From assembly GCA_022072415.1 (NCBI GenBank), contig JAJVHW010000051.1, positions 1 through 46,825 of the forward strand: a stretch of 46,825 nt of DNA. The letters run 5' to 3'. The notes under the pieces were generated by a model, which saw nothing but the letters and a program-made list of their open reading frames with translations, had not been told where the DNA came from and made no database searches. Below, piece after piece: positions 5,022-26,389 of this stretch (positions are counted from its first letter, which is position 1; each line of letters starts with the position of its first letter). The stretch comes from Planctomycetota bacterium. Its GTDB lineage: Bacteria; Planctomycetota; JAJSAM01; JAJVHW01. The position numbers were made by a program, and so were the translations under genes.

Positions 5022-5126
5022 GGTTCACGCCCATGCGGTTCACGCCCACGTGGTTCACGCCCACATGGTTCACGCCCACATGGTTTACGCCCACATGGTT
5101 TACGCCCACATGGTTTACGCCCAAAC
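5022..5126. repeat. 15-bp tandem repeat array, seven units
   Basis: Seven consecutive 15-bp units, read on the minus strand as ATGTGGGCGTRAACC, start inside the last codons of the GT3-GT35 fusion gene and run into the gap before the ExbD-like gene. The W-A-stop end of the fusion protein (TGGGCGTAA) is itself part of the first unit, so each further unit repeats an in-frame stop (TAA in three units, TGA in four). The outer units diverge by a few bases. Confidence 0.9.
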
Positions 5127-8100: not shown

Positions 8101-9389
8101 TCGTAGAAGCTCGGGAAGCACGTCAGGTCGGCGCCCTGGAGGAGCGACTCGTAGCCCATCCCGAAGAGCCCGTCGCCCACGCCGAGGTAGCTCGCCACGT
8201 GGATCACGCGGACCCGCGAACCCTTCGCGTTGAGGAGTCCGAGCGCCCGGCACTTCACGGCGATGCCGTCGTTCTCCGCGTCGAAGAGCGCGTGCGTGCA
8301 GTGCCCGACGGGCTCCCCGGGCGCGAACGGCGCGCGCAGCCGCTCCGCCACGTCGCGGCGCAGCCCCGCGTTGCCCGCGGGGACGAACATCCAGAGCACG
8401 ATCCGGCGGCCCGGCTTCTGCGCGATCTCGGCCAGCGCGGCGAGCAGGATGTCGTAGCCCTTGTTGTGCATCTCGTGGCGGCCGGCCGTGACGATCGTGT
8501 AGGCGTCGCCGGCGTCCTCGCCGAGCAGCTTCGACGCCGCGTCGCGGAACCGCCGCGCGGAGGCGTCCCGCGTCGCGCCGCCCACGCGGAGCTTCATCAC
8601 CTCGGGGTCCCACCCGTTCGGGAGCACGACGTCGGCCGCGCGGCCGTGGACGAGGCGCGCCTCGTCGGACGTCATGTCGCTCACCGCGGTGAACACGTCG
8701 CATTCGCGGACGAGCGCGGCCTCCATCGAGTGGGCGGCGCGCACGCCGGTCGCCTCGGCGGCCTGCTCGACGGTGCGCCCCTCGAGCCCCTTCTCCGGCG
8801 AGACGCCCGTCGCCGCGATGGCGCGCCCGAGGACGGTCGAGTGCGCGGTGAAGACGGTCCCGATCTCCGGCGCCTCGTCGCGCAGGCGGAGGAGGCCCGC
8901 GCCCGCGAGCCACTCGTGGAACTGCGCCACGGCGGGCCCCTGCGCGCCCTGCGGACTCTCGCGCCACCACCGCTCGACGACGATGCCCGCGGCCCAGCCG
9001 AAGAGCAGGGGCTCGACGTACTCCCATCCGCCGAACAGCGAGTCCACGCGATGGCGGTCCCAGAGCGCCTTCAGGATCTCGTCCTTCCGCGCGTAGAGGC
9101 CGGAGAACTCCACGAGGATCGCCCGGGGCTTCCCCGGCACGTCCCACCGCCCCACCTGCACGGGCACGCCGGCCGCCCGGCAGCCCTCGGCGAACGCGTC
9201 GAACGCGGGGTCCGGCTCGAACTCGCTCGGGTGGTCGCCGGGGGACAGGCGCCACGGGCCGATCACGACGTAGCTCTCGCCGAGACGCTCGGACATCGAG
9301 CGCGCCTTCGTGGCGAGGACGGTGTGGACGCCGCCGACCTTGCTGCAGACTTCCCAGCTCACCTCGAACAGCGTGGCCGTGCGCTTCAA
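5115..9389 (-). CDS. Fusion of GT3 glycogen synthase and GT35 alpha-glucan phosphorylase
   Basis: A 1424-aa cytoplasmic enzyme. Residues ~1-545 are a GT3 (eukaryotic-type) glycogen synthase: FEVSWEVCSKVGG at the start and SFYDAWGYTPQESLALGVPT near 440. A Pro/Ala linker follows, then a DUF3417-type segment (~565-660, NLRWTWDAEA), then an alpha-glucan phosphorylase with the pyridoxal-phosphate lysine in EASGTSGMKAAANGAL near residue 1160, and a beta-rich tail (~1295-1424). One half adds glucosyl units from a nucleotide sugar; the other removes glucose-1-phosphate. The start is TTG at 9389, overlapping the GH57 stop by 4 bp (TTGA). Long proteins of this kind are, to my knowledge, known from Bacteroidota and others. 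Confidence 0.93.
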   Translation of the reverse strand: MKRTATLFEVSWEVCSKVGGVHTVLATKARSMSERLGESYVVIGPWRLSPGDHPSEFEPDPAFDAFAEGCRAAGVPVQVGRWDVPGKPRAILVEFSGLYARKDEILKALWDRHRVDSLFGGWEYVEPLLFGWAAGIVVERWWRESPQGAQGPAVAQFHEWLAGAGLLRLRDEAPEIGTVFTAHSTVLGRAIAATGVSPEKGLEGRTVEQAAEATGVRAAHSMEAALVRECDVFTAVSDMTSDEARLVHGRAADVVLPNGWDPEVMKLRVGGATRDASARRFRDAASKLLGEDAGDAYTIVTAGRHEMHNKGYDILLAALAEIAQKPGRRIVLWMFVPAGNAGLRRDVAERLRAPFAPGEPVGHCTHALFDAENDGIAVKCRALGLLNAKGSRVRVIHVASYLGVGDGLFGMGYESLLQGADLTCFPSFYDAWGYTPQESLALGVPTITTDCTGFGQWTSAAGVPRGRGVTVLARKDRSDEKATARLVRAIERRLDDARDRETVAASCREIAASTEWTLLVERHFDAHAKARETARKRSRRKHVPAAPAPAHPLPARPAAPPNRPRLFPLDVTPAVPAGIADLARIARNLRWTWDAEAASLFADLSPQVFDACRHDAVRTLREASQADLDARAADPEYAHRVKRVARRLDADLSAAAAAADAEADGPSRRHPVAYVCAEFGIHESLPIYSGGLGALAGDHLKTAADLRFPLVGVGLLYRRGYMRQRLDGGTDQRAVEDVLDPAASPLAPVLGADGKPVEVSLQIPGTKLLLRAWKLQVGTVELYLLDSDTDGNRAEDRAITHALYSGDAEHRLRQEIVLGAGGARLLAAIGIEPSAWHVNEGHGAFCALERARVLVKEKGLSFDEAREAVRATTVFTTHTPVPAGHDRFAEDLMRRYFSDVPEWLGIPWERFFALGVASDDAHGFNMTKLAIEFASVVNAVSEKHGEVSRSLLRSFQPALLTGEVPVASVTNGVHLPTWTSPAVAKLLGASGAVAAEDFRRRAPQASDAALWAVRSSLRDDMRRAVAARVTASFRARGDSEALLARTVEGLSPDALYIGFARRFATYKRADLVLRDPARLAAILDAPGRPVRLLVAGKAHPRDGAARDLLSRVAKLARSDAFAGRIVILEDYDLALARTLVRGVDVWLNNPRAPLEASGTSGMKAAANGALNLSVGDGWWLEAFDGTNGWRIGPDFRTAPVPADEGAQDVADAAALYTLLEHEVVPSFFDRGADGVPASWCARVRRALATVPPVFDTARMVAQYAELAYRPLARRFHELREDDFAGARALAARRARVHAGMAALRVVAARVAGAESARPGDALAAEVDVNLGTLLPGDVVVEMVLGERRGDDDLDAREIVVLQPARPIDREDGSAPAAGGLRRYAGTVTVSAPGRLAYGVRVRPAGITGAPGDERPTFHDPVVWA

Positions 9390-12088: not shown

Positions 12089-13309
12089 TCAGGAGGCGCG
12101 GACCTTCACCAGCCGCCCGATCTCGTCCATCGCGGCGCGGCAGCCGTCGTAGTCGGGGTGCTTCAGGCGGATGTACGCGTTGGCCATGTACCCCGCCTCC
12201 ACCGGCTGCGTGGGGGTGCCCGGCGGCGGCAGGTGCGCGTCGAGGATGAACTCGCCGAACCGCTGGTACATCTCGCGGACGCCCTCGTACGAGGCGATCC
12301 GCCCGTCGCGGTCCGGGCGGAGCGCGATCATGCCCGCGGTGAAGCGGCGCGACGGCCGCTTGTCCGGCCGGCCCTGCGCGACGGCGAAGCCCCATTCGCG
12401 GTAGAGGTCGAAGTCGTTCGCGGCGGAGTAGAGGTCCCAGACGCCGACGCCCGGCGGGCGGCAGCCGATCTCGCTGAACTTGAGCCCCTTCGGCCCGTAG
12501 AACCACTCCATGTGGGTGGCGGTGGTGCCGAGCCCGAGCGCGGAGATCACGCGCGCGCCCATCGCCTTCACCTCGGCGTAGCCCGCGGCGTCCACGCGGT
12601 TCGTCGTGACGATCTGCGGCGAGATCCACCGCGTGCGCATCGCCTCGAGGACGCCCGGGTAGTAGTGCGAGATGAAGTCGTGGACCACCACCCCGCCGAT
12701 CGAGAGCGTGTCGTAGAAGCCCTCGTGCCCCTCGATGAACTCCTCGACCGCGCACGCCGCGCCGCGGTCCACGTGCGACTCGGCGATCGCGCGTTCGAGG
12801 GACGCGTCGTCGTCCACGCGGATCGTGCCCGACGCGCCGGCGGCGGCCGACGGCTTCAGGATCAGCGGATACCCGTTCGCCTTCGCGAAGGCGCGGACCT
12901 CGTCGCCGGACTGCGCCCCGGTGGACTTCGCGCAGGGCACCCCCGCCGCGCGGAGCGCCTCCTTCATGGCCGGCTTGTCCCGGCAGAGGAACGCGGAGCG
13001 GACCGACGTGCCGGGGATCCCGCACGCCTCCCGCACCTTCGCCGCGGGGAGGATGTGCGCCTCCACCGTGGCCTCGAGCCGGTCGATCCAGCCGCGCGAC
13101 TGGATCCGCTTCACGGCCGCGGTCATCGACTCCTCGTCCACGACGGACCGCACCTGCTCGTACCACGTGAGCTGGCCGCGCAGCTCGTCGCCGAGCGCCT
13201 CCCGGGGCTGCTCGCCCACGGCGCTCACGGCGGCCCCGGCCTCGATCAGGCCCCGGACGAACTTCTTCTGGTTCGACGGGAAGCGCGGCTCGACGAAGAT
13301 GACGTGCAC
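12089..13309 (-). CDS. ATP-grasp ligase, paralogue 1
   Basis: A 406-aa ATP-grasp enzyme that should form an amide or related bond via an acyl phosphate. Visible are the ATP-binding lysine in YPLILKPSAAAGASG (K152), the adenine-contact segment CAVEEFIEG (about 187-195), and the metal-binding segment FSEIGCRPPG (about 290). It shares THMEWF and RPPG motifs with the genes at 21091 and 22338, so the three are paralogues. I set the start at GTG 13309, preceded by CGGAGGGG with good spacing; the track start at 13399 adds 30 residues with no fold. It is divergent from the S51-like gene. Substrates are unknown. Confidence 0.88.
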   Translation of the reverse strand: MHVIFVEPRFPSNQKKFVRGLIEAGAAVSAVGEQPREALGDELRGQLTWYEQVRSVVDEESMTAAVKRIQSRGWIDRLEATVEAHILPAAKVREACGIPGTSVRSAFLCRDKPAMKEALRAAGVPCAKSTGAQSGDEVRAFAKANGYPLILKPSAAAGASGTIRVDDDASLERAIAESHVDRGAACAVEEFIEGHEGFYDTLSIGGVVVHDFISHYYPGVLEAMRTRWISPQIVTTNRVDAAGYAEVKAMGARVISALGLGTTATHMEWFYGPKGLKFSEIGCRPPGVGVWDLYSAANDFDLYREWGFAVAQGRPDKRPSRRFTAGMIALRPDRDGRIASYEGVREMYQRFGEFILDAHLPPPGTPTQPVEAGYMANAYIRLKHPDYDGCRAAMDEIGRLVKVRAS

Positions 13310-13356
13310 GGGAAACCCCTCCGGAATGTCTCGGCGGCGATGGATAGCATCGCCCC

Positions 13357-14286
13357 GTGCGCCGGATCGTACTCCTGGGGTCGCAGCGGCTCCAGCCAAC
13401 CCTCGTGCAGGCCGTCGAATCCGTGGGAGTCACGGGTCCGATCGTGGCGATCACGGCAGGCTGGGAGGAGCGCGAGGACGAGATCGACGAGCTCCGCGAC
13501 CACCTCGGCCGCCGGGTCCTGAACCTCCGCCTCCACCACCGGGGCGAGGAGGTCTTCGAGAAGGACCCGGAGCTCTTCCGCGCGGTGCGCGACCGCCGCC
13601 AGACGCTCCGCGAGGCGCACGACCTCTACCGGATCCGCCTCGACCGGGCGATCCAGGCGCTCCGCGACCTCCGCACCCACGGCGGGCCGCACGCGCTCCT
13701 CGACCCGGCCATGCTCGCGGCGCTCGACGACCTCCGCCGCCTCGACGACTGGCACGTGGCGCGGATGGCCGAGATCGTCCGCGAGTGGGACGAGCGCTGG
13801 CGCCCGTCCGAGCGCGCGTCGCTCGCCCCGCACCTCCGCGCGATCGAGGCCATCTCGCGCGAGGCGGAGACGCTCGCCGTCGCGGGCGGGAACGTCGCCG
13901 TGCTGCTGAACCGGCTCCGGCTCTTCGGGATCGACCGCACGTTCTCGCGGCACACGGTCTTCGCCTGGTCGGCCGGCGCGATGACGCTCACCGAGCGGAT
14001 CGTCGTCTACCACGACGACCCGCCGTTCGGCCGCGGCAACCCCGAGGTGCTCCGCCCCGGGCTCGGGTTCGTCGGGGGCGTCGTCGCGCTCCCGCACTGG
14101 CACCGGCGGATCCGCACGGACCACGTGAACCGCGTGCGCCTCTGGCACCACCGCTTCCGCCCGCTGCGCTGCGCCGCGCTCGACGACGGGTCGTGGGCGG
14201 TGTTCGGCGACGGCGTGCTCCGCGCCGTCTCGAACGGCGTGCGCACGTTCACCGAGGACGGCCGCGTGGAGGACCTCGTCCCGTGA
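13357..14286 (+). CDS. Peptidase S51-like protein (cyanophycinase / dipeptidase E superfamily)
   Basis: A 309-aa protein. AVAGGNVAVLLNRLRLFG (about 175-191) matches the glycine-rich element before the nucleophile in S51 peptidases, and FAWSAGAMTL places the nucleophile at Ser205 in the usual xSAGA turn. PHWHRR (~246) may give the histidine. Residues ~60-170 form a long charged helical region that S51 enzymes normally lack. S51 members cut after Asp or in beta-linked peptides, but a non-peptidase amidotransferase-like role cannot be excluded. The start is GTG at 13357, 48 bp from the divergent ATP-grasp gene. Its stop overlaps the next start by 4 bp. Confidence 0.75.
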   Translation: MRRIVLLGSQRLQPTLVQAVESVGVTGPIVAITAGWEEREDEIDELRDHLGRRVLNLRLHHRGEEVFEKDPELFRAVRDRRQTLREAHDLYRIRLDRAIQALRDLRTHGGPHALLDPAMLAALDDLRRLDDWHVARMAEIVREWDERWRPSERASLAPHLRAIEAISREAETLAVAGGNVAVLLNRLRLFGIDRTFSRHTVFAWSAGAMTLTERIVVYHDDPPFGRGNPEVLRPGLGFVGGVVALPHWHRRIRTDHVNRVRLWHHRFRPLRCAALDDGSWAVFGDGVLRAVSNGVRTFTEDGRVEDLVP

Positions 14287-15422
14287 CGCTCGCCCTCCGG
14301 AACCTCCTCTCCCGCCGCGACACGCTCACCGACCCCGAGGTGCGGCGCTTCCTCTCCGAGCACGGCTCGCCGATCGTCGAGGGCGGGACCGTCACGTTCC
14401 TCTTCTACGGCCGCGCGACGGCGGTGCGCCTGCGCCACTTCATCTTCGCCCTCCAGTCCTCGCAGGCGTTCGAGCGCCTCGGAGGGACCGAGCTCTGGCA
14501 CCTGACGCTCGAGGTGCCCCTCGGCTCGCGCATCGAGTACAAGCTCGAAATCGAGCTCGACGGGCGGACGGTGCTCGTCCGCGACCCGCTGAACCCCCGC
14601 ATCGCGCACGATCCGTACGGGGCGAACTCCGTGTGCGTGACGCCCGGCTACGCGGTCCCGGCGTGGATCCAGCCCGACGCGGAGGCGCGCCCCGGCGGGT
14701 CGGAGTCGTTCTCGCTGCAAAGCGCCGCGCTCGGCGGCGAGCGGCACGTGGACGTCTACCTCCCGGCGCGCATGCGTCCGACGCGCCGGTACCCGCTGCT
14801 CGTCGCGTTCGACGGGCGGGACTACGTCCACTTCGCGAGCATGCGGACGGTGCTCGACAACCTGATCCACCGCGACGAGGTGGAGCCCTGCATCGTGGCG
14901 TTCTGCCAGTCGCCGGACCGCATGCGCGAGTACGCCGCGTGCGAGGAGCACTCGCGGTTCGTCGGCGAGGAGCTGCTCCCCGCGCTCGAGGCGAAGTACC
15001 CGATCCGGGAGGGCGCGGCGAACCGCGGACTGATGGGCGCGTCGCTCGGCGCGGTGGCGTCGCTCCACGCCGCGTGGAGGTTCCCCGGGCGATTCGGAAG
15101 GCTCTTCCTCCAGTCCGGGTCGTTCGCGTTCACGGACATCGGGCGGCACGTGAAGCACCCGGTGCTCGAGCCCGTCCTCGACTTCGTGAACCGCTACCGC
15201 GAGGAGCCGTCGAAGGTCGCGGAGCGGGTCTACGTGTCCTGCGGCGTCTACGAGGGGCTCATCTACGAGAACCGCTCCCTGTACCCGATCCTCCAGAAGA
15301 CCGGCATGGAGGTGAAGTTCGTCGAGGCGCGCGACGGGCACAACTGGGAGAACTGGCGCGACCGCCTGCGCCAGGGGCTCGGTTGGCTTTTCCCCGGCCC
15401 CCTCAACCTGGTGTACGAATGA
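14283..15422 (+). CDS. Enterochelin-esterase-like alpha/beta hydrolase with N-terminal E-set domain
   Basis: A 379-aa protein. Residues ~25-120 form an immunoglobulin-like E-set/CBM48-type domain (VTFLFYGRATAVRLRHFIF, then RIEYKLEIELDGR), as found before Fes-type esterases. Residues ~140-370 are an alpha/beta hydrolase with nucleophile elbow LMGASLGAVASLHA and catalytic His in ARDGHNWENWRDRL. Family members cleave ester bonds; the substrate is unknown. It starts at GTG 14283, overlapping the S51-like stop (GTGA), so the two are likely co-translated. The large track ORF from 12735 only extends this frame through anti-sense of the upstream genes. Confidence 0.88.
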   Translation: MTLALRNLLSRRDTLTDPEVRRFLSEHGSPIVEGGTVTFLFYGRATAVRLRHFIFALQSSQAFERLGGTELWHLTLEVPLGSRIEYKLEIELDGRTVLVRDPLNPRIAHDPYGANSVCVTPGYAVPAWIQPDAEARPGGSESFSLQSAALGGERHVDVYLPARMRPTRRYPLLVAFDGRDYVHFASMRTVLDNLIHRDEVEPCIVAFCQSPDRMREYAACEEHSRFVGEELLPALEAKYPIREGAANRGLMGASLGAVASLHAAWRFPGRFGRLFLQSGSFAFTDIGRHVKHPVLEPVLDFVNRYREEPSKVAERVYVSCGVYEGLIYENRSLYPILQKTGMEVKFVEARDGHNWENWRDRLRQGLGWLFPGPLNLVYE

Positions 15423-15471
15423 CGGGTCCCGCGCCTCCCGCCCCGGGGGGCCGTCCCGGAGGGCAGACTCC

Positions 15472-16725
15472 ATGGCCGCACCGCGTTCCGTCGTGACCCG
15501 GAGGATCGGGCTCTCCCTGGGAGCCGACCTCTGCTGGCCCGCCTGCTACGAGGAGATCGTGCGGCGGCTGGACCTCGAGATCCCGGTCCGGAAGGAGCGG
15601 ATCCGGTTCGAGGTCGAGCGCGTGACCATCGAGCCCTTCTCGCTCGCCCAGCCGGTGAAGTACGACGTGGTGCTCGACCGCCTCACGCACTGGTACCACA
15701 CGTCGCGGGAGTGGGTGAAGAAGGCCGTCGTGATGAACGACGTGTACGTCCTCAACAACCCGTTCTCGATCCAGGCGAACGAGAAGCACACGACCTACGC
15801 CGCGATGATGCGCCTCGGACTCCCGGTGCCCGAGACGTGGATGATCCCGCCGAAGGAGTACGAGTGGACGCAGGACCTCCGGATCACCCTCCGGAACTAC
15901 GCGAAGCTCTTCGACCTCGGGAAGATCGGCGAGAAGATCGGCTACCCGATGTTCATGAAGCCGTACGACGGCGGCGCGTGGGTGGGCGTCTCGAAGATCG
16001 ACGACGAGGCCGCGCTGAAGGAGGCGTACGAGAAGAGCGGGAAGCGGGTGATGCACCTGCAGAAAGCGGTCTCCCCCTTCGACCTGTTCGTGCGCTGCAT
16101 CGGCATCGGGCCCCAGACCCGCGTCATCAAGTACGACGCGTCCGCGCCGCTCCACGCGCGCTACACGGCCGAGAAGGGGTTCGTGACCGACGAGGAAGCG
16201 CGCCTGATGCGCGAGATGACGCTCACGATCAACGCCTTCTTCGGCTGGGACTTCAACTCGTGCGAGGCGCTCCGCCGCGACGGCGTCTTCTACCCCATCG
16301 ACTTCGCCAACGCGTGCCCCGACAGCCAGGTCACGTCGCTCCACTACCACTTCCCGTGGCTCGTCCTCTCGAAGATCCGCTGGTCGCTCTTCGTCGCCGC
16401 GACGAAGCGCCCGATGCGCCACAACCTCGACTGGGCGCCGTTCTTCGAGGTCGCGAGGGAGGACCTGCCGTTCCGCGAGAAGCTCCGTAAGTACGCGGAC
16501 ATCGCCGAGAAGCGGCTCGAGGCGGACCGGTTCGAGGAGTTCTGCGCGAAGCACCTCGCGCACCTGCCCGAGGTGGCGCACGAGTTCTTCGCGTCGCAGA
16601 TCTGCAGGGAGGCGGTGCGCGGGAAGGTCGCGCAGCTCTTCCCCGCGCACGAGGTCGAGCAGTTCACCGAGCATTTCTTCGCCGCGATCCAGCGGTGGCG
16701 CGAGGAGGAGGGCCGCCCGTCATGA
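15472..16725 (+). CDS. RimK-type ATP-grasp ligase
   Basis: A 417-aa ATP-grasp enzyme of a different branch from the three paralogues. An N-terminal region ends in VYVLNNPFSIQANEKHTTYA, typical of RimK/glutathione-synthetase-like enzymes. The ATP lysine is in YPMFMKPYDGGAWVGV (K163), and the metal-binding end is in FYPIDFANACPDSQ. It probably joins an amino acid to a carboxylate. The ATG at 15472 has GGAGG at 15457-15461. The gene overlaps the following esterase by 4 bp (ATGA), so both likely act on the same compound. Confidence 0.88.
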   Translation: MAAPRSVVTRRIGLSLGADLCWPACYEEIVRRLDLEIPVRKERIRFEVERVTIEPFSLAQPVKYDVVLDRLTHWYHTSREWVKKAVVMNDVYVLNNPFSIQANEKHTTYAAMMRLGLPVPETWMIPPKEYEWTQDLRITLRNYAKLFDLGKIGEKIGYPMFMKPYDGGAWVGVSKIDDEAALKEAYEKSGKRVMHLQKAVSPFDLFVRCIGIGPQTRVIKYDASAPLHARYTAEKGFVTDEEARLMREMTLTINAFFGWDFNSCEALRRDGVFYPIDFANACPDSQVTSLHYHFPWLVLSKIRWSLFVAATKRPMRHNLDWAPFFEVAREDLPFREKLRKYADIAEKRLEADRFEEFCAKHLAHLPEVAHEFFASQICREAVRGKVAQLFPAHEVEQFTEHFFAAIQRWREEEGRPS

Positions 16726-17504
16726 CCAGGGAGCAGCAGCCGCCGAAGCAGGGTCCCCGCGAGATCCCGAAGCGCACCGAGCGCCTCTTCGACGAGGCCA
16801 TCGGGCGCGAGATCCTCTGCGCGCGCTGGGGATGGTGGGGCCTGCCCGTCCTCCTCTACCCGACCGCCGGCGGCGACGCCGAGGAGGTCGAGCGCATGAA
16901 GATGATGGTCGTCCTGCGCCCGCTCCTCGAGGCCGGGAGGATCAAGGTCTTCAGCGTGGACTCCATCGGCGGACAGGCGCTCACGCAGAAGGACCGGACG
17001 ACCCAGTCGTTCGCGCGCGCCCAGACGCTCTTCGACCGGTTCGTCTACAACCGCGTCGTGCCGTGGATCCGGAAGGACTGCGACTCCCCCGCCGCGGAGA
17101 TCGTCACGGCCGGCGCGTCGATCGGCGCGTACAACGCCGCCGCCTCGGTCTGCCGGCACCCCGACGTGTTCAGCCGCGCGATCGCCATGTCGGGCACGTT
17201 CGACCTCACGAAGTGGCTCGAGCCGCCGTACTCGCTCGACTTCTACTACTCGTCGCCGATGCACTTCATCCCGAACCTCGGCGAGTGCGAGCAGCTCCGC
17301 CTGCTGCGCACGCGGCACATCCTGCTGCCGACGGGGTCCGGCCCGTACGAGGAGCCCGCGCAGTCGTGGCGCCTCGCGCAGGTCCTCGGCGCGAAGGGCA
17401 TCCCGAACCGCGTGGACGACTGGGGGAAGGACTACGACCACGCCTGGCCCACGTGGCGCGAGATGCTCCCGAAGTACCTGGGCGAGATCACGCAGGCGTC
17501 GTGA
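16722..17504 (+). CDS. Esterase-family alpha/beta hydrolase
   Basis: A 260-aa hydrolase of the COG4947 esterase kind. The nucleophile elbow is TAGASIGAYNAA with Ser133, and the catalytic His is probably in KDYDHAWPTW near residue 243. It carries no signal peptide, so it should act in the cytoplasm. The ATG start overlaps the stop of the RimK-type ligase (ATGA). Two such esterases in one ligase cluster suggest that ester- or thioester-like intermediates, or activated esters, are handled. Substrate not known. Confidence 0.85.
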   Translation: MTREQQPPKQGPREIPKRTERLFDEAIGREILCARWGWWGLPVLLYPTAGGDAEEVERMKMMVVLRPLLEAGRIKVFSVDSIGGQALTQKDRTTQSFARAQTLFDRFVYNRVVPWIRKDCDSPAAEIVTAGASIGAYNAAASVCRHPDVFSRAIAMSGTFDLTKWLEPPYSLDFYYSSPMHFIPNLGECEQLRLLRTRHILLPTGSGPYEEPAQSWRLAQVLGAKGIPNRVDDWGKDYDHAWPTWREMLPKYLGEITQAS

Positions 17505-18279: not shown

Positions 18280-19734
18280 TCAGCCCGCGGCGAGTCGGCG
18301 GTAGAGCGACTCGTACTCCCCGATCCGCCGGTCCCAGCCGTTGTCCTCGGCCATGCCCTGGAGCTGGATCGAGCGCCAGACCGCGCGGTCGGCGAAGAGG
18401 CGCACCGCCGTCTCCGCGGCCCACCGGAGCCCCTGCGCGGTGAAATGGTCGAAGACGATGCCCGTGCCGTCGCCCGTGCGGCGGTCGTAGAGGCGCACGG
18501 TGTCCGCGAGACCGCCCGTCTTCCGCACGATCGGCACCGTGCCGTAGCGCAGGCTGTACATCTGGTTCAGCCCGCACGGCTCGAACAGCGACGGCATCAG
18601 GAACGCGTCGGCGCCGGCTTCGATCCGGTGGGCCATGCGCTCGTCGTACCCCTCGCGGAAGGCGAACTTCCTCGGGAACGCGCGGGCCATGTCGCCGAGC
18701 ATCCCCGCGATCTCGCGGCTGCCCGAGCCGAGGCAGACGATCCGGACGTCGCGGGACGCGAGGACCGGGAGCAACGCCTCCTGGAAGAGCTCGAAGCCCT
18801 TCTGCGCCGTGAGCCGCGAGACGACGCCGAACACCGGTCCGCCCGGCGTCGGCGCGAGGCCCGTCTCGCGGAGCAGCTCGGCGCGGCACACCGCCTTCCC
18901 CGAGAGGTCGTTCGGCGAGTAGCGGGCCGGGAGGTGCGCGTCGCGCGACGGATCCCACACGTCGTGGTCGATGCCGTTCAGGATGCCGACGACGCCGCGG
19001 GCCCGGAGCAGCGCGTCCAGTCCGAAGCCGTGCTCCGGCGTCTGCACCTCGCGCGCGTGCGTCGGGGACACGACGGTCAGCGCGTCGGCCCAGAGGAGGC
19101 CGGTGGTCAGGAACGAGAAGCGCCCCGCGCGCGCCTCGTCCTGGTGGAGCATGTGCGCGACGGGGCCGAGCCCCGTCTCCGCCGCGCGCGCGAACGGGAA
19201 CGCCCCCTGGTAGGCGAGGTTGTGCAGCGTGAGCACCGAACGCGTCCGCGCGAAGAGCCGGTCCCACGAGTAGAGCGTCCTCACGTAGAGCGGCATGAGC
19301 GCCGTGTGCCAGTCGTGCGCGTGGACGATGTCGGGCGCGAACCCCATGCGCTGGCAGCTCTCGAGCGCGGCGCGGGAGAGCATCGCGAAGCGCAGGTGCT
19401 CGTCGCCCTGCTGCGAGTAGATCTCGTCCCGGCCGCCGAACAGCGCGGGGCAGTCCACGAAGTAGACCAGGGGCCCGCCCGGACCGCCGTGGCGCCCGGC
19501 GCGGAGCGAGAACGTGAACGTCCGCCCGCCGAGCTCCACGGGCACGTCGCGCACGAATCCCACCGGCATCAGCGCCGACGCGTCGATCCGCCCGTAGAGC
19601 GGGAGGAACGCGCGCACGTCGTGCCCGTGCTTCGTCAGGTACGTGACGAGCGACCCGCAGACGTCGCCGAGCCCGCCCGTCTTCGCGAACGGGGCCATCT
19701 CGGACGCGGCGAGGCAGATTCGGAGCGCGGTCAT
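18280..19734 (-). CDS. glgA: Glycogen synthase, GT5 (ADP-glucose type)
   Basis: A 484-aa GT-B enzyme that adds glucose from ADP-glucose to growing glycogen. KTGGLGDV (residues 18-25) is the ADP-glucose loop. HAHDWHTALMPLYVR lies mid-protein, and SLFEPCGLNQMYSLRYGTVP followed by KTGGLADTV forms the conserved C-terminal site. Length matches bacterial GlgA. The ATG at 19734 has GGAGGG just upstream. glgC lies upstream on the same strand with 32 bp between, so they probably form an operon. Confidence 0.95.
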   Translation of the reverse strand: MTALRICLAASEMAPFAKTGGLGDVCGSLVTYLTKHGHDVRAFLPLYGRIDASALMPVGFVRDVPVELGGRTFTFSLRAGRHGGPGGPLVYFVDCPALFGGRDEIYSQQGDEHLRFAMLSRAALESCQRMGFAPDIVHAHDWHTALMPLYVRTLYSWDRLFARTRSVLTLHNLAYQGAFPFARAAETGLGPVAHMLHQDEARAGRFSFLTTGLLWADALTVVSPTHAREVQTPEHGFGLDALLRARGVVGILNGIDHDVWDPSRDAHLPARYSPNDLSGKAVCRAELLRETGLAPTPGGPVFGVVSRLTAQKGFELFQEALLPVLASRDVRIVCLGSGSREIAGMLGDMARAFPRKFAFREGYDERMAHRIEAGADAFLMPSLFEPCGLNQMYSLRYGTVPIVRKTGGLADTVRLYDRRTGDGTGIVFDHFTAQGLRWAAETAVRLFADRAVWRSIQLQGMAEDNGWDRRIGEYESLYRRLAAG

Positions 19735-19766
19735 GTCCCTCCGGGCGGGTCGGAGCCGAAGTCGGG

Positions 19767-21032
19767 TCAGATGATGGTGCCGGGCGGGATCGTGGCGTTG
19801 CGGGGCACGACGATGACTCCGCCGCGGATCGCGTAGTTGTCCGCGTCCTCGTGGTCCACGCCCCGGGCGTTCACGAGCTGCGCGCCGTCGCCGATCCTCG
19901 CGTCGAGGTCGATGATCGCGTTCTTGACGACGCAGTCCCGGCCGATGCCCATCGGCACGGCGGCGTCGGACGGACGCTGGGACTCGTACTCGCGCCCGCC
20001 CATCACGATCGTGCGGTCGATCTTCGCCCCGGGGCGCACGATCGCGCGGATGCCGATGATCGAGTTCGTGATCCGGCTCTCGCTGATGATGCTCCCCTCG
20101 CAGAGGATCGACTGCTCCACCTCGCACTTGTTGACCTTCGTGCCGGGCAGGAACCGCTGGTGCGTGTAGATCGGGAAGTCGGGGCTGTAGAGGTTCAGCG
20201 GCGGGAGCGGATGCGTGAGTTCGAGGCTCGCCTCGTGGAAGCTCGGGATCGTGCCGATGTCCCGCCAGTAGCCGTTGTAGGCGAACGACCACACGCGCCG
20301 GTCCTTGATGGCCGCGGGGATCACGTCCCTCCCGAAGTCCGCCGCGCCGGTGCCGCCCACGATCTCCTGAAGCACGTCCATCCGGAACGTGTAGATGCCC
20401 ATGCTCGCGAGGAGCGCCCCCGGCTCGGCCTTGAAGCCGAGCGCGGCGAGCGTCTCCGGCGGCGGCGTGAGCCGGTCGAGGACCTGCTCGTCCTGGGGCT
20501 TCTCGACGAACTCGACGATCCGCCCCTCCCGGTCCACGCGCATGATGCCGAGCGCCTTCGCCTGGCTCCGCGGCACCGCGGTCACCGCCACGGTCAGGTC
20601 CGCGGAGGCCGCCCGGTGGCGCTTCACGAACGCGCGCATGTCCATCAGGTAGAGCTGGTCGCCCGAGAGGATCAGCACGTCCCGGGGCCGCAGGTCCGCG
20701 AGGTGGATGAGGTTCCGCCGGATCGCGTCGGCCGTCCCCTGGTACCAGTCCTTCCGGTCGCTCCGCTCGTCGGCGGCGAGGATCTCCACGAACCCGCCGC
20801 GGAACGGGTCGAACCTGTACGTCTGCGAGATGTGCCTGTGCAGGCTCGCGGAGTTGAACTGGGTGATGACCCAGACCCGCTCGAAGCCTGCGTGCAGGCT
20901 GTTGCTGATGGGGACGTCGATGAGGCGGAACTTCCCGCCCAGCGGGACCGCGGGCTTCGCCCGGTCGCGGGTGAGCGGCCACAGGCGCGAGCCCTGGCCT
21001 CCTCCGAGGATGGCGGTGACGACTGTCTTCAT
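19767..21032 (-). CDS. glgC: Glucose-1-phosphate adenylyltransferase
   Basis: A 421-aa ADP-glucose pyrophosphorylase, the committed step of glycogen synthesis. The nucleotide-binding start reads ILGGGQGSRLWPLTRDRAKP, with FRLIDVPISNSLHAG after it. WYQGTADAIRRN and EFVEKPQDEQ mark the sugar-phosphate site, and a left-handed beta-helix forms the C-terminal third. The long PLTRDRAKPAVP loop is the allosteric region. No Shine-Dalgarno is visible before the ATG at 21032; instead a perfect 10-bp inverted repeat lies just upstream and is shared with a divergent ATP-grasp gene. Confidence 0.95.
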   Translation of the reverse strand: MKTVVTAILGGGQGSRLWPLTRDRAKPAVPLGGKFRLIDVPISNSLHAGFERVWVITQFNSASLHRHISQTYRFDPFRGGFVEILAADERSDRKDWYQGTADAIRRNLIHLADLRPRDVLILSGDQLYLMDMRAFVKRHRAASADLTVAVTAVPRSQAKALGIMRVDREGRIVEFVEKPQDEQVLDRLTPPPETLAALGFKAEPGALLASMGIYTFRMDVLQEIVGGTGAADFGRDVIPAAIKDRRVWSFAYNGYWRDIGTIPSFHEASLELTHPLPPLNLYSPDFPIYTHQRFLPGTKVNKCEVEQSILCEGSIISESRITNSIIGIRAIVRPGAKIDRTIVMGGREYESQRPSDAAVPMGIGRDCVVKNAIIDLDARIGDGAQLVNARGVDHEDADNYAIRGGVIVVPRNATIPPGTII

Positions 21033-21037
21033 ATCGC

Positions 21038-21069
21038 CCGGGGCGAGGCTACCCTTGGACTCGCCCCGG
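21038..21069. promoter_or_regulatory. 10-bp perfect inverted repeat between glgC and an ATP-grasp gene
   Basis: ccggggcgag (21038-21047) and ctcgccccgg (21060-21069) are exact inverse complements, 12 bp apart, in the 58-bp gap between divergent glgC and the ATP-grasp gene at 21091. The layout fits a dimeric regulator controlling both directions. The arm beside glgC lies where its ribosome-binding site should be, so an RNA hairpin is an alternative. Confidence 0.5.
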
Positions 21070-21090
21070 TTCCAACGGAGACTCCCGTCC

Positions 21091-22341
21091 ATGCGCAACG
21101 TCGTCTTCGTCGCCCCGTATCTGATGGACGCCACGCTGCGATTCGTCCGGGGGGCTGCGGCGGTGAACGGCGCCCGCGTCGTGCTCCTCACGGAGGAGCC
21201 GGAGGAGAAGATCCCGCAGGACCTCCGCGCGCTCCTCTTCGGCCACTGGCGGCAGGAGGGGCTCCTCGACCACGCGAACATCGTGAAGGCGGTGACCGAG
21301 ATCTCGCGCCGCCTCGGCACGGTGTCGCGGCTGATCGGGATGCTCGAGCAGGTCCAGGTGCCGCTCGGCCGCGCCCGCGAGGAGCTCGGGATCGACGGCA
21401 TGGACGCGCGCACGGCGGAGCGCTTCCGGGACAAGGGGCTCATGAAGGACGTGCTGCGCGCGGCCGGAGTGCCCTGCGCGCGCCACCGGAAGATCTCCGA
21501 CGAATCCGAGGCCCTCGCGTTCGCGAAGGAGACGGGCTTCCCGCTGGTGGTGAAGCCGCCCGCCGGCGCCGGCGCGAAGTCCACGTTCCGCGTCGAGACC
21601 GCCGACGAACTCGTGCAGTCGGTCCGCGCGTGCGGCGCGGGGCGCGGCCGCGAGGTGCAGGTCGAGGAGTTCGTCACGGGCGACGAACACTCGATCGACA
21701 CGGTGACGATCCACGGGAAGCCGGTCTGGCACTCGATCTCGCACTACGACCCCTCCCCCCTCCACGTGGTCGAGAACCCGTGGATCCAGTGGTGCGTGAT
21801 GGTCCCCCGCGAGATCGACCATCCGCGCTACGACGACGTGCGTCAGGTCGCGTACCGCGCGCTCGACGCGCTCGGGATGCGGACCGGCGTCTCGCACATG
21901 GAGTGGTTCCGCCGCCGCGACGGGTCCCTCGCCGTGGGCGAGGTCGGGTGCCGCCCGCCCGGCGCGCAGCTCTGCACGCTCCACAGCTACGCGCACGACT
22001 TCGACCTCTACGGCGCATGGGGCCGCCTCGCGATCTTCGACCAGTTCCATCCGCTGGAGCGGAAGTACGCGGCCGGAGCGGCGTACCTGCGCGGACAGGG
22101 TCCCGGCGGCGCCCGGGAGGGCGGCCGCGTGGCGTTCGTGAACGGCCTCGAGCAGGCCCAGCGGGAGCTCGGGCACCTCGTGGTCGAGGCGCGGCTCCCG
22201 CGCGTCGGGCAGACCGCGAGCGGGACGTACGAAGGCGAAGGCTACGTGATCGTGCGCCACCCGGAGACCGAGGTGGTGCGGCAGGCGCTCCGGCGCCTGG
22301 TCACGCTGATCCAGGTCGGTCTCGAGCAGGAGCGCAGATGA
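21091..22341 (+). CDS. ATP-grasp ligase, paralogue 2
   Basis: A 416-aa ATP-grasp enzyme. The N-terminal pre-ATP domain begins MRNVVFVAPYLMDATLRFVR. The ATP lysine is K155 in FPLVVKPPAGAGAKS, the adenine segment is VQVEEFVTGDE, and the metal site lies in VGEVGCRPPGAQ. The shared segment THMEW (here SHMEWFRRRDG) ties it to the paralogues at 12089 and 22338. It is divergent from glgC and followed by the next ATP-grasp gene with a 4-bp overlap. The start is ATG 21091 with CGGAG about 10 bp upstream. The substrate is unknown; an amino acid or peptide acceptor is likely from the family. Confidence 0.88.
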   Translation: MRNVVFVAPYLMDATLRFVRGAAAVNGARVVLLTEEPEEKIPQDLRALLFGHWRQEGLLDHANIVKAVTEISRRLGTVSRLIGMLEQVQVPLGRAREELGIDGMDARTAERFRDKGLMKDVLRAAGVPCARHRKISDESEALAFAKETGFPLVVKPPAGAGAKSTFRVETADELVQSVRACGAGRGREVQVEEFVTGDEHSIDTVTIHGKPVWHSISHYDPSPLHVVENPWIQWCVMVPREIDHPRYDDVRQVAYRALDALGMRTGVSHMEWFRRRDGSLAVGEVGCRPPGAQLCTLHSYAHDFDLYGAWGRLAIFDQFHPLERKYAAGAAYLRGQGPGGAREGGRVAFVNGLEQAQRELGHLVVEARLPRVGQTASGTYEGEGYVIVRHPETEVVRQALRRLVTLIQVGLEQERR

Positions 22342-23558
22342 CACGGGTCCTTTACCTCTCGCCCGGCTATCCGCCGGAGATGCCGTTCTTCGTGCGCGGC
22401 CTCGTGGACGAGGGCGCGCAGGTCTACGGGATCGGCGACGGCCCGGAGGCCGGCCTCCCGGAGCTCGCCCGTTCGCGGCTCTCGGGCTACCTCCAGCTCC
22501 GGAACCTCTGGGACGAGCAGCAGACCGTCGAGACGGTGCGCCGCTGGGCGCGTCACGTCCCCTTCGACCGCGTCGAGTGCCTCTGGGAGCCGGGGATGAT
22601 CCTCGCCGCCCGCATCCGCGAGGCGCTCGGGCTCCCGGGGATGACCGTCGAGCAGACGCTCCCCTTCCGCGACAAGGAGACGATGAAGGTCGCGCTCGAC
22701 GAGGCGGGCATCCGCACGCCCCGCCACGCGCGCGCGAAGACCGCCGACGAGATCCGCGCCGCGGCGAGGCGCATCGGCTATCCGGTCATCGTGAAGCCCA
22801 TCGCGGGCGCCGGCTCTGCCGACACGCACCGCGTGGACGACGACGCGCAGCTCGAGCAGGCGATCCGCGTCACGCAGCACGTGAAGGAGTGCTCCGTCGA
22901 GGAGTTCATCGACGGCGAGGAGTTCACGTTCGACACCGTGTGCGGCGGCGGGAAGATCCTCTACTGGAACATCTCGTGGTACCGCCCGCGGCCGCTCGTC
23001 CAGCGGCAGCTCGAGTGGTGCACGCCGCAGACCATCGCGCTCCGCAACCCCTCGCAGTCCGACCTCGCCGGCGGCGCGGCCATGGGGCGCGCGGTGATCG
23101 ACGCCCTCGGCTTCCGCGACGGCTTCACGCACATGGAGTGGTACCGGAAGGCCGACGGAGAGGCCGTCTTCGGCGAGATCGGCGGGCGTCCGCCGGGAGC
23201 CCGCTCGACGGAACTCATGAACTACGCGTGCGACTTCGACGTGTGGCGCGCGTGGGCCGAGGCGGTGCTGCGCGGGCGGATCTCGCAGCCCGTGGAGCGG
23301 AAGTACAACGCCGGGATGGCCTTCAAGCGGGCCCGCGGCAACGGCCGCATCCAGCGGATCGACGGCCTCGAGCGCTGGCTGCAGCGCTCCGCGGGCGCCG
23401 TGACGTCGGTGGAGCTCCTCCCGGTCGGCGCCATGCGCCGCGACTGGAAGCAGACGCTCCTCTCCGACGGGTGGATCATCGCGCGGCACCCCGACCTCGG
23501 GACGCTGATGGAGATCCTCGACCGCTTCGGGACCGACGTGCAGCTCATCGCCGGCTAG
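22338..23558 (+). CDS. ATP-grasp ligase, paralogue 3
   Basis: A 406-aa paralogue of the preceding enzyme. The N-terminus reads MTRVLYLSPGYPPEMPFFVR, the ATP lysine is K153 in YPVIVKPIAGAGSAD, the adenine segment is CSVEEFIDGEE, and the metal site is in FGEIGGRPPGARS. The ATG at 22338 overlaps the previous stop (ATGA). Two adjacent, related ATP-grasp enzymes often carry out successive additions to one product; that is inference here. Confidence 0.88.
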   Translation: MTRVLYLSPGYPPEMPFFVRGLVDEGAQVYGIGDGPEAGLPELARSRLSGYLQLRNLWDEQQTVETVRRWARHVPFDRVECLWEPGMILAARIREALGLPGMTVEQTLPFRDKETMKVALDEAGIRTPRHARAKTADEIRAAARRIGYPVIVKPIAGAGSADTHRVDDDAQLEQAIRVTQHVKECSVEEFIDGEEFTFDTVCGGGKILYWNISWYRPRPLVQRQLEWCTPQTIALRNPSQSDLAGGAAMGRAVIDALGFRDGFTHMEWYRKADGEAVFGEIGGRPPGARSTELMNYACDFDVWRAWAEAVLRGRISQPVERKYNAGMAFKRARGNGRIQRIDGLERWLQRSAGAVTSVELLPVGAMRRDWKQTLLSDGWIIARHPDLGTLMEILDRFGTDVQLIAG

Positions 23559-23578
23559 GCGGAAGGGAACGGGAAGGC

Positions 23579-25501
23579 TTGGGCGACAAGAACGTCATCG
23601 AGTCCGGCGACGAGGCCGAGGCGCTGCGGGGATTCACGAACAAGCTCCTCCGCGACCTCCGGGCGCTGGAGATGCTCCTCGAGCGGAAGGCCTTCGACAC
23701 CGGCGTGCGCCGGATCGGCGCCGAGCAGGAGTGCTTCCTCGTGGACCGCGCGTGGCGCCCCGCCGCGGCGGTGCTTCAGGTGATCGAGAAGATGAAGGAC
23801 CCCCACTACGTGACCGAGGTGGCGCAGTTCAACCTCGAGATGAACCTCGACCCGCTCGAGTTCACGGGGACCTGCCTCCGCCGGATGGAGGACCAGCTCC
23901 TCCAGCTCCTCGTCAAGGCCCGCGCCGCGGCCCACGCCACGGGGAACGAGATCTGCCTGATCGGCATCCTCCCCACCGCGCGGAAGGGAGACCTCGGCCT
24001 CGAGAACATGACGCCGAACCCGCGCTACTTCGCGCTGAACCGCGCGATGACGAAGCTCCGCGGGACGGACTACGAGATCCGCCTGAAGGGGATCGACGAG
24101 ATCAACGTGAAGCACGACTCGGTCATGGTCGAGGCGTGCAACACGTCCTTCCAGGTCCACTTCCAGGTCGCGCCCGACGAGTTCGCGAAGTACTACAACC
24201 TGGCGCAGGTCATCGCCGCGCCGACCCTCGCCGCCGCGACGAACTCGCTCCTCCTCTTCGGCCGCCGCCTCTGGCACGAGACGCGGATCGCGCTCTTCCA
24301 GCAGTCCGTGGACACGCGGGCCACGGCGCACGACATGCGCGAGGTGAGCCCCCGCGTGGACTTCGGCCGGCAGTGGGTCCGCCGCTCCGTGGTGGAGCTC
24401 TTCCAGGAGGCCATCTCGCGGTACCGCGTGCTCATCGCGGGCCCCACCGACGAGGACCCCATCGAGCTCGTCGAGAGCGGGAAGGCGCCCCAGCTCCGCG
24501 CGCTCCGCCTGCACAACGGGACCGTCTACCGCTGGAACCGCGCGTGCTACGGCATCTCCGACAACGGGAAGCCCCACCTCCGCATCGAGAACCGCGTCCT
24601 CCCGAGCGGGCCGACGCCCCTCGACGAGATGGCCAACGCCGCGTTCTGGTACGGCCTGATGCTCGGGCTCGGGCGGCAGGTCGAGGACGTCACGAAGCAC
24701 ATGAGCTTCGACGACGCGAAGGGGAACTTCTTCGCCGCGGCGCGGAACGGTCTCGGCGCGCACCTGACGTGGTTCGACGGCCAGTCGGTGCAGGCGCGCG
24801 ACCTGATCCTCGAGAAGCTCCTCCCGGCCGCATGGGAAGGGCTCCGCTCGGCGAAGATCGACGCCGCGGACATCGAGCGCTACCTCGGCGTGATCCAGGA
24901 GCGCGTGAAGGAGGCGCAGACGGGTTCCCGCTGGGCCCTGAAGAGCTTCGCGGCCCTGGCCGACAAGGGCACGCCCGGCGAGCGGCTCAACGCGATCACG
25001 GCGGCCGCCGTCTCCCGGCAGTGGGAGAACACCCCCGTCGCGCGCTGGCCGCTGGCGCGGATCGAGGAGGGCGGCGGCTGGCGGAACAACTACGTGAAGG
25101 TCGAGCAGTTCATGACGACCGACTTCGTCACCGTGCAGGAGACGGACGGCCTCGACCTCGCCGCGAACCTGATGGTGTGGGAGCGGATCCGCCACGTGCC
25201 GGTGGAGGACGGCGAGCATCGTCTCGTCGGGCTCGTCTCCTACCGCGCGCTCCTCCGCGCCCTCGCCGCCGGCGCCGCCGAGGGGCGCCACGTCGGGGAC
25301 ATCCCCGTGTCGGAGGTCATGCGCCGCGATCCCGTCTGCGTGACTCCGGAGACGCCGAGCCTGAAGGCCATCGAGATCCTGCGGAAGAGCGACTTCGGAT
25401 CGCTGCCCGTGGTCAAGGACGGGCGCCTCGTCGGCGTCATCACCGCGCGGAACTTCCTCCAGATCGCGGCCGAGCTCCTCGAGCAGAAGCTGAAGGAGTA
25501 G
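23579..25501 (+). CDS. GCS2-type carboxylate-amine ligase fused to two CBS domains
   Basis: A 640-aa protein. Residues ~40-480 are of the glutamate-cysteine ligase 2 type (YbdK/COG2170 relatives): RRIGAEQECFLVD (about 45-57) and FNLEMNLDP (84-92) carry the acidic metal/ATP residues. Residues ~510-635 are a CBS pair (VEQFMTTDFVTVQE, then SEVMRRDPVCVTPE), which in other proteins senses adenine nucleotides. The core should join an amino acid to a gamma- or alpha-carboxylate using ATP. The start is uncertain: a TTG at 23579 keeps the frame open after the upstream stop and sits right against GGGAAGG. The frame upstream of it is shadow. Confidence 0.88.
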   Translation: MGDKNVIESGDEAEALRGFTNKLLRDLRALEMLLERKAFDTGVRRIGAEQECFLVDRAWRPAAAVLQVIEKMKDPHYVTEVAQFNLEMNLDPLEFTGTCLRRMEDQLLQLLVKARAAAHATGNEICLIGILPTARKGDLGLENMTPNPRYFALNRAMTKLRGTDYEIRLKGIDEINVKHDSVMVEACNTSFQVHFQVAPDEFAKYYNLAQVIAAPTLAAATNSLLLFGRRLWHETRIALFQQSVDTRATAHDMREVSPRVDFGRQWVRRSVVELFQEAISRYRVLIAGPTDEDPIELVESGKAPQLRALRLHNGTVYRWNRACYGISDNGKPHLRIENRVLPSGPTPLDEMANAAFWYGLMLGLGRQVEDVTKHMSFDDAKGNFFAAARNGLGAHLTWFDGQSVQARDLILEKLLPAAWEGLRSAKIDAADIERYLGVIQERVKEAQTGSRWALKSFAALADKGTPGERLNAITAAAVSRQWENTPVARWPLARIEEGGGWRNNYVKVEQFMTTDFVTVQETDGLDLAANLMVWERIRHVPVEDGEHRLVGLVSYRALLRALAAGAAEGRHVGDIPVSEVMRRDPVCVTPETPSLKAIEILRKSDFGSLPVVKDGRLVGVITARNFLQIAAELLEQKLKE

Positions 25502-25504
25502 CGG

Positions 25505-26389
25505 GTGGACTCCGCGCGCGTCTTCGCGTCGGTCCGCGGCGCGGAGCCGGGTCCCACCCTGATCGTCGTGGCCTCGATCCACGGGAACGAGCCCGCGGGG
25601 GCGGTCGCGGCGTCGCGCGTCGCGGCGACGCTCCGCGAGGAGTCCGTCCGCGGCTCGTTCGTCGCGATCACCGGGAACGTCGCCGCATCGTCGCGCCGCG
25701 TGCGTTGCGTGCACCACGACCTGAACCGGGCGTTCCTCCCGGACCCCGTGGCCGCGGCGCGGCGCGGCGAAGCGCCCGCGGGGCTCGGCGCCGAGGGTGC
25801 GGAGCTTCGCGGGCTGGTCCGCGCCCTCGACGACGCGCGAGCCGCCGCCCGCGGCCCCGTGTTCCTCCTCGACCTTCACTCGACCTCCGGCGACGGCGCG
25901 CCGTTCCTGCTCCTCCCGACGTCCGGCGGCGCCCGCCTCGCGTCCGCCGTCCCGCTCACCGCGGTGTCCGGCCTCCTCGGGATGCTCCGCGGCACGATGG
26001 TCGAGGAGTTCCGCGGGGAGTTCGACGGCGCCCTCGTCGCCGAGTGCGGGAGCCACGGGAGTTCGGCTGCGCCCGACTGCGCCGAGGCCGTGATCCGCTG
26101 CGTCCTCGCGGAGACGGGGATCGCGCCGCCGGACCCGGACGCCCCGCGGCGTCTGGAGTCGTTCCGCGGCGCGCTCCCGGCGTCCCTCGCCGTCGCGTAC
26201 CGCCATGCGATCGCTCCCGCGGACCGGTTCGCGATGCGTCCGGGGTGGCGCCACTTCGACCCCGTGACCGCGGGGACTCCGGTCGCGGACGACGCGCGCG
26301 GTCCCGTGCTCGCGCCGGTCACGGGCCGGATGCTCCTCCCGCTCTACCAGCCGGTCGGGGACGACGGGTTCTTCGTCGCGATCGGGTAG
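25505..26389 (+). CDS. AstE/AspA-family deacylase
   Basis: A 294-aa zinc-dependent deacylase related to succinylglutamate desuccinylase and aspartoacylase (M14 fold). The zinc ligands appear as ASIHGNEPAG (H26, E29) and FLLDLHSTSGD (H125). HHDLNRAF gives the substrate-binding Asn/Arg, and VAECGSHG the catalytic Glu (E180). These enzymes remove acyl groups from amino acids such as Glu or Asp. The start is GTG at 25505, three bases after the CBS-ligase stop, so the two are probably one transcript. In this cluster it could trim an acylated product or recycle it. Confidence 0.9.
   Translation: MDSARVFASVRGAEPGPTLIVVASIHGNEPAGAVAASRVAATLREESVRGSFVAITGNVAASSRRVRCVHHDLNRAFLPDPVAAARRGEAPAGLGAEGAELRGLVRALDDARAAARGPVFLLDLHSTSGDGAPFLLLPTSGGARLASAVPLTAVSGLLGMLRGTMVEEFRGEFDGALVAECGSHGSSAAPDCAEAVIRCVLAETGIAPPDPDAPRRLESFRGALPASLAVAYRHAIAPADRFAMRPGWRHFDPVTAGTPVADDARGPVLAPVTGRMLLPLYQPVGDDGFFVAIG

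Follow-up and report, generated by a model that had tools for sequence, protein, structure and literature searches.

The locus analysed here raises the question of whether a protein that joins a GCS2-type ligase to a pair of CBS domains is a genuine enzyme and, if so, whether its CBS part could let the energy state of the cell act on amide-bond synthesis. The window (the whole stretch of DNA that was analysed, 46,825 nucleotides from a Planctomycetota bacterium) carries such a gene, flanked by an AstE-type hydrolase gene and by genes for ATP-grasp ligases, esterases, and glycogen enzymes (Table 1). With a probability of roughly 0.55, we favor a reading in which the gene encodes an ATP-dependent amide ligase of the GCS2 fold, whose AcuB-like CBS (Bateman) pair is tuned by adenine nucleotides and whose AstE-type neighbor hydrolyzes that amide or a related one.

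Table 1. Fused gene and neighboring features in the window
Feature	Position	Strand	Remarks
ATP-grasp ligase 3	12089..13399	-	Member of wider conserved cluster
S51-family peptidase-like gene	13357..14286	+	PF03575 28.9 bits, cut-off 23.9; W-S-A-G-A-M motif aligned
Fes-like esterase	14283..15419	+	Cross-species frame test; PF00756 E 3e-23
ATP-grasp ligase 4	15472..16725	+	RimK/D-Ala-D-Ala-ligase-like, very conserved; weak ATP-grasp fold match
Second esterase	16695..17504	+	PF00756; directly precedes fused gene in second phylum
glgA-like glycogen/starch synthase	18280..19842 (start approximate)	-	PF08323 E 2.4e-69
glgC-like nucleotidyltransferase	19767..21041 (start approximate)	-	PF00483, LbH_GLGC; divergent from ATP-grasp 1
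ATP-grasp ligase 1	21091..22341	+	Pfam ATP-grasp families; overlaps start of ATP-grasp 2
ATP-grasp ligase 2	22338..23558	+	Pfam ATP-grasp families; directly upstream of fused gene
Fused gene, GCS2-type ligase + CBS pair	23579..25501	+	640 aa, TTG start, stop included; single frame
Pfam GCS2 match, residues 47-269	23717..24385	+	PF04107 29.3 bits, cut-off 21
CBS unit 1, residues about 506-563	25094..25267	+	PF00571; alignment to AcuB 2o16
CBS unit 2, residues 577-629	25307..25465	+	PF00571; alignment to AcuB
AstE/aspartoacylase-type zinc hydrolase	25505..26389	+	PF24827 51 bits, cut-off 25; directly downstream of fused gene

One gene with two domains, conserved across phyla

The frame runs from its TTG to the stop codon with no internal stops, and the first two residues (M1-G2) are kept in at least 90% of the homologs. 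GCS2 and CBS are the only Pfam domains of the product, the CBS pair (residues about 506 to 636) being recognized as two tandem stretches with 96 bits against a cut-off of 24 (PF00571, E = 1.6e-27). An AlphaFold2 model built from 35 homologs (mean pLDDT of 86, with low confidence at both termini and in residues 243 to 251) combines a GCS2 fold with an AcuB-like CBS pair; the ligase fold occupies residues about 12 to 483 and extends beyond the Pfam match. The uninterrupted frame, the Pfam matches, and the AlphaFold2 and Foldseek results thus confirm the original prediction, which had placed the ligase and two CBS units in one frame and had named structure prediction as a check.

One scan of genome_contigs returned 80 loci with 45 to 72% identity over nearly the whole length, and their record titles name Planctomycetota, Acidobacteria, Gemmatimonadetes, Bacteroidetes, Rhodothermales, and deltaproteobacteria. 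Carriers make up 65 of the 294 sampled genomes in the window's own phylum. The fusion is intact to the end of the second CBS unit at 124 of 126 loci, a count that includes a few overlapping stretches of one and the same place, from Planctomycetota, Acidobacteriota, Bacteroidota, Gemmatimonadota, and deltaproteobacterial genomes; the two exceptions are a locus cut by the end of its contig (L149) and one that stops early (L081). This full-length conservation rules out two separate genes as well as a sequencing artifact. Since the fusion is kept over several bacterial phyla, it represents a genuine enzyme design, apparently unstudied, with a possible role in sensing the energy state of the cell. 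The original prediction did not regard the fusion as well studied, and a literature search, also with wider terms and with most subscription papers outside its scope, found no paper joining a GCS2 and a CBS domain. GCS2 ligases, AcuB-like CBS pairs, and CBS-regulated enzymes are all known; their combination here is apparently an unreported variant.

At four Rhodothermales loci (L018, L021, L023, and L072), the same-strand gene next downstream of the fused gene codes for a membrane protein that is conserved and about 360 residues long.

The ligase domain and its relatives without a CBS tail

Membership in the ligase family was scored with PF04107, for which the protein lies above the cut-off. 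Matched by eye, its motif residues correspond in position to those of E. coli YbdK, and E49, E51, E80, E87, Q192, H194, Q196, W319, R321, R335, E337, and R339 are kept in essentially all 81 homologs. Foldseek matched the N-terminal part to the plant glutamate-cysteine ligase (GCL) 2gwc with an E value of 1.5e-12 and to YbdK (1r8g) with a TM-score of 0.78 to 0.80 on the target; the E values for 2gwc, 1r8g, and 1tt4 range from 1e-11 to 1e-12. The domain thus shares with YbdK and plant GCL the fold, the E-x-E motif, and the later E/H/W-x-x-R/E-x-R positions. It differs from them in its low identity to 2gwc and 1r8g (13 to 16%), its greater length (about 500 residues ahead of the CBS part), a Q-V-H-F-Q motif in place of the H-V-H of YbdK, and the C-terminal CBS pair. 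A comparison of the family profile with YbdK (hhalign) gave an uninformative probability of 0.4%, and the profile had no recognizable match to the solved GCL sequences. The weak sequence match to GCS2 (29 bits) does not allow the substrate to be read from YbdK or GCL; from family knowledge and the motifs, the probable reaction is ATP-dependent activation of a carboxylate (glutamate or a relative) followed by its ligation to an amine.

Ligase homologs that end after about 500 residues are found in the phylum of the genome with locus L008, which was deposited as a deltaproteobacterium. Twelve of these CBS-less sisters (L165 to L176) form one clade, with a support of 1.0 and a long branch, and retain the ligase motif residues; the sole one scanned (L167) matched no Pfam family. 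As the ligase tree is unrooted, gain of the CBS pair in one line and loss in the other are not separable. The sisters do indicate that the tail is dispensable for the ligase domain in evolution, which fits a regulatory role, and the CBS part is probably a regulatory add-on for which the sister clade provides a natural control. At one of the 12 sister loci, a separate CBS-pair protein (L169:7549-8337) adjoins the CBS-less ligase, as if the two parts were split.

The CBS pair resembles AcuB

Foldseek matched the C-terminal part to AcuB (2o16), with a TM-score of 0.85 to 0.88 on the target, and to other CBS pairs. By sequence, the nearest solved CBS chains include 2o16 as well (36 to 37% identity), and the gamma-AMPK-like MJ1225 also ranks among the closest matches in sequence and structure. 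Of the proteins whose ligands are known, AcuB has the closest CBS pair, with shared IRH(V/L)P and T..D/N elements. AcuB is an energy-charge sensor that binds AMP, ADP, and ATP, and also Ap4A (PMC13121692); the original prediction had stated that CBS pairs bind AMP/ATP in other enzymes. The type I site of B. subtilis AcuB comprises Ile32, Arg33, Thr119, Thr121, and Asp122, with His34 bridging the phosphates, and the type II site comprises Arg51 and Asp52; one passage of the same paper, on two AcuB orthologues, swaps the Asp residues between types I and II (PMC13121692).

The equivalent residues in the window are I537, R538, H539, R556, A557, T622, and N625, and in the alignment to 2o16 the I-R-H-V-P stretch, the Arg of unit 1, and the Thr of unit 2 match directly. 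Unit 1 has the AcuB-like I537-R538-H539 together with R556, with the type II ribose Asp replaced by A557, and unit 2 has the type I element T622-x-x-N625, for which the family consensus is T-E-x-D. The AcuB type I residues (R33/H34 and T119..D122) therefore have their counterparts in the window, with Asn for Asp. The position of His539 is Tyr or Phe in most homologs, and the ribose-binding position 625, Asn in the window, is Asp in 53, Glu in 13, and Asn in 4 of the 81 homologs. The type I set as a whole (R538, T/S622, and D/E/N625) is kept in 64 of the 81, 47 of them with a strict Asp; the type II Arg-Asp pair is found in none of them, and only R556 of it is kept in the window. One putative adenine-nucleotide site is thus likely kept and the second degraded. 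Given the Asn at the ribose position and the loss of the type II Asp in all 81 homologs, binding may be weak, single-site, or of another ligand.

AcuB (structures 9s4v-9s52 and 2o16) has an ACT domain and a separate partner, whereas the CBS pair described here is fused to the ligase, and the Pfam scan of the protein found no AcuB-type C-terminal ACT domain. A CBS pair inside an enzyme chain is also found in CBS-pyrophosphatase (PMC11172384) and IMP dehydrogenase, for which adenine-nucleotide control is published; in the fused protein, the catalytic domain is a different one, the CBS pair is C-terminal, and the control is predicted. The likeness to AcuB and the existence of CBS-less sisters put the originally proposed switching of the ligase by adenine nucleotides on better ground, and we consider it plausible.

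An AstE-type hydrolase as recurrent partner

The gene that follows the fused gene encodes a member of the AstE/aspartoacylase zinc deacylases, with the zinc motif H-x-x-E...H and the catalytic Glu; the motifs HGNE, D-x-NR, D-x-H, and E-x-G are kept in at least 90% of 45 sequences. Unlike the characterized members, to which it is only distantly related, it is paired with a GCS2 ligase. At 39 of 110 testable loci, the fused gene is followed on its own strand by an AstE-type gene, mostly within 150 bases; AstE is not adjacent at the other 71, and a search for another recurrent partner at loci without AstE found none. Of the 12 CBS-less loci, 9 or more also have a diverged AstE-like gene directly 3' of the ligase. 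As the pairing is seen with and without the CBS part, the functional unit with the best support is the ligase together with the deacylase, and the making and breaking of an amide is the best-supported candidate role of the pair.

A model for the fused enzyme and its alternatives

In our model, the ligase part would activate the carboxylate and join it to the amine at the expense of ATP. The CBS pair would dimerize the enzyme, and its single preserved site would bind an adenine nucleotide and so make ligase activity follow the AMP/ADP/ATP state of the cell. The AstE-family hydrolase would cut this amide bond or a related one, and the two enzymes would form a make-and-break pair. Ligation and cleavage are the most likely activities from family knowledge and conserved motifs, and the reading of nucleotides by the CBS pair is most likely by analogy with AcuB; what we infer comprises catalysis, the binding of nucleotides, and the direction of control, as well as substrate and product. 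If the CBS pair does control the ligase, a direct energy-state switch on amide-bond synthesis would reside within one protein and be kept over several phyla.

CBS pairs also bind SAM, cyclic di-AMP, NAD(H), or metals, or serve oligomerization only, and the tail could be regulatory and still sense another ligand, such as SAM, NAD(H), cyclic di-AMP, Ap4A, or Mg2+. We regard this as possible but doubtful: the preservation of only one AcuB-type site, the variable ribose Asp, and a weak NCBIfam match to a cyclic-di-AMP-binding CBS protein, far below the cut-off, leave room for it, as does the binding of Ap4A by AcuB (PMC13121692), but the closest matches include the AMP/ADP-binding AcuB and the gamma-AMPK-like MJ1225, and the IRH and T..D elements suit an adenine nucleotide. 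That the pair is a dimerization scaffold without ligand control seems decidedly improbable. CBS pairs do dimerize, and one site is degraded in all homologs, but the type I residues are kept across phyla, which is more than a pure scaffold would need, and the sister clade lives without any such scaffold.

The ligase half invites two further explanations. An ordinary glutamate-cysteine ligase for glutathione-type thiols, with an incidental CBS tail, would agree with 2gwc and YbdK as top structural matches; it is quite unlikely in view of the low identity to both, the failure of the family profile to match any solved GCL, and a recurrent neighbor that is an AstE-type deacylase and not a glutathione synthetase, although ATP-grasp genes do occur in a subset of loci. 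A catalytically dead ligase, which would make the protein a nucleotide-binding regulator, could be suspected from the low Pfam score and from the replacement of the H-x-H motif of YbdK, but all motif acids and arginines are invariant in the 81 homologs and in the CBS-less sisters, and we consider it very unlikely.

The glycogen, ATP-grasp, and esterase neighborhood

The original prediction had tied the ligase to the neighboring glycogen genes. In the window, these are glgC and glgA, which stand upstream of, and divergent from, a pair of ATP-grasp genes; the second gene of the pair is kept beside the fused gene at some loci. The tie stands for some lineages and fails as a general one. It is found in the window's own phylum, where glgA lies within about 7 kb of the fused gene at 6 of 40 loci, and in a second phylum, where a co-directional run of glgA, ATP-grasp 3, S51 peptidase, Fes-like esterase, ATP-grasp 4, esterase, and GCS2-CBS is present at five loci (L177, L179, L180, L182, and L183), sometimes ending with AstE; S51 was not detected in the L183 operon. 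These five loci were chosen for a nearby ATP-grasp 4, and they therefore show the existence of the operon and not its frequency. Most carriers have no glgA close by, and with glgA near the gene at only 1 of the 80 genome_contigs loci, a general glycogen link is rejected.

ATP-grasp 4 has 59 to 73% identity across two phyla. It had no Pfam family above the cut-off, its model reached a pLDDT of only 69 with weak fold matches to ATP-grasp enzymes, and a search of viral contigs found no relatives. In the window's own phylum, it co-occurs with the fused gene in 34 of 41 cases (hypergeometric P = 8e-20, with kinship ignored), whereas in the second phylum 19 co-occurrences were seen and 18.7 expected, and ATP-grasp 4 is therefore not general support.

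It is conceivable, but in our view unlikely, that the amide made and broken by the energy-gated ligase and AstE belongs to a storage or modification pathway not yet described, in which a conserved operon (glgA, ATP-grasp 3, S51 peptidase, Fes-like esterase, ATP-grasp 4, esterase, GCS2-CBS, and AstE) would link synthesis of the amide to glycogen synthase in some lineages. With AstE as a recurrent partner and with the glgA/ATP-grasp/esterase operon, the ligase product becomes a tractable target.

Three smaller observations concern the same region. The operon genes from glgA to GCS2-CBS form a wider conserved cluster in the window (12089-17504 and 18280-25501) and at the five second-phylum loci. 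A minus-strand frame at 14007-15473 proved to be a shadow of the plus-strand Fes-like esterase, as decided by the cross-species frame test. Finally, a single minus-strand frame at 5115-9389 of the window matches glycogen synthase, DUF3417, and carbohydrate phosphorylase and is apparently a synthase-phosphorylase fusion.
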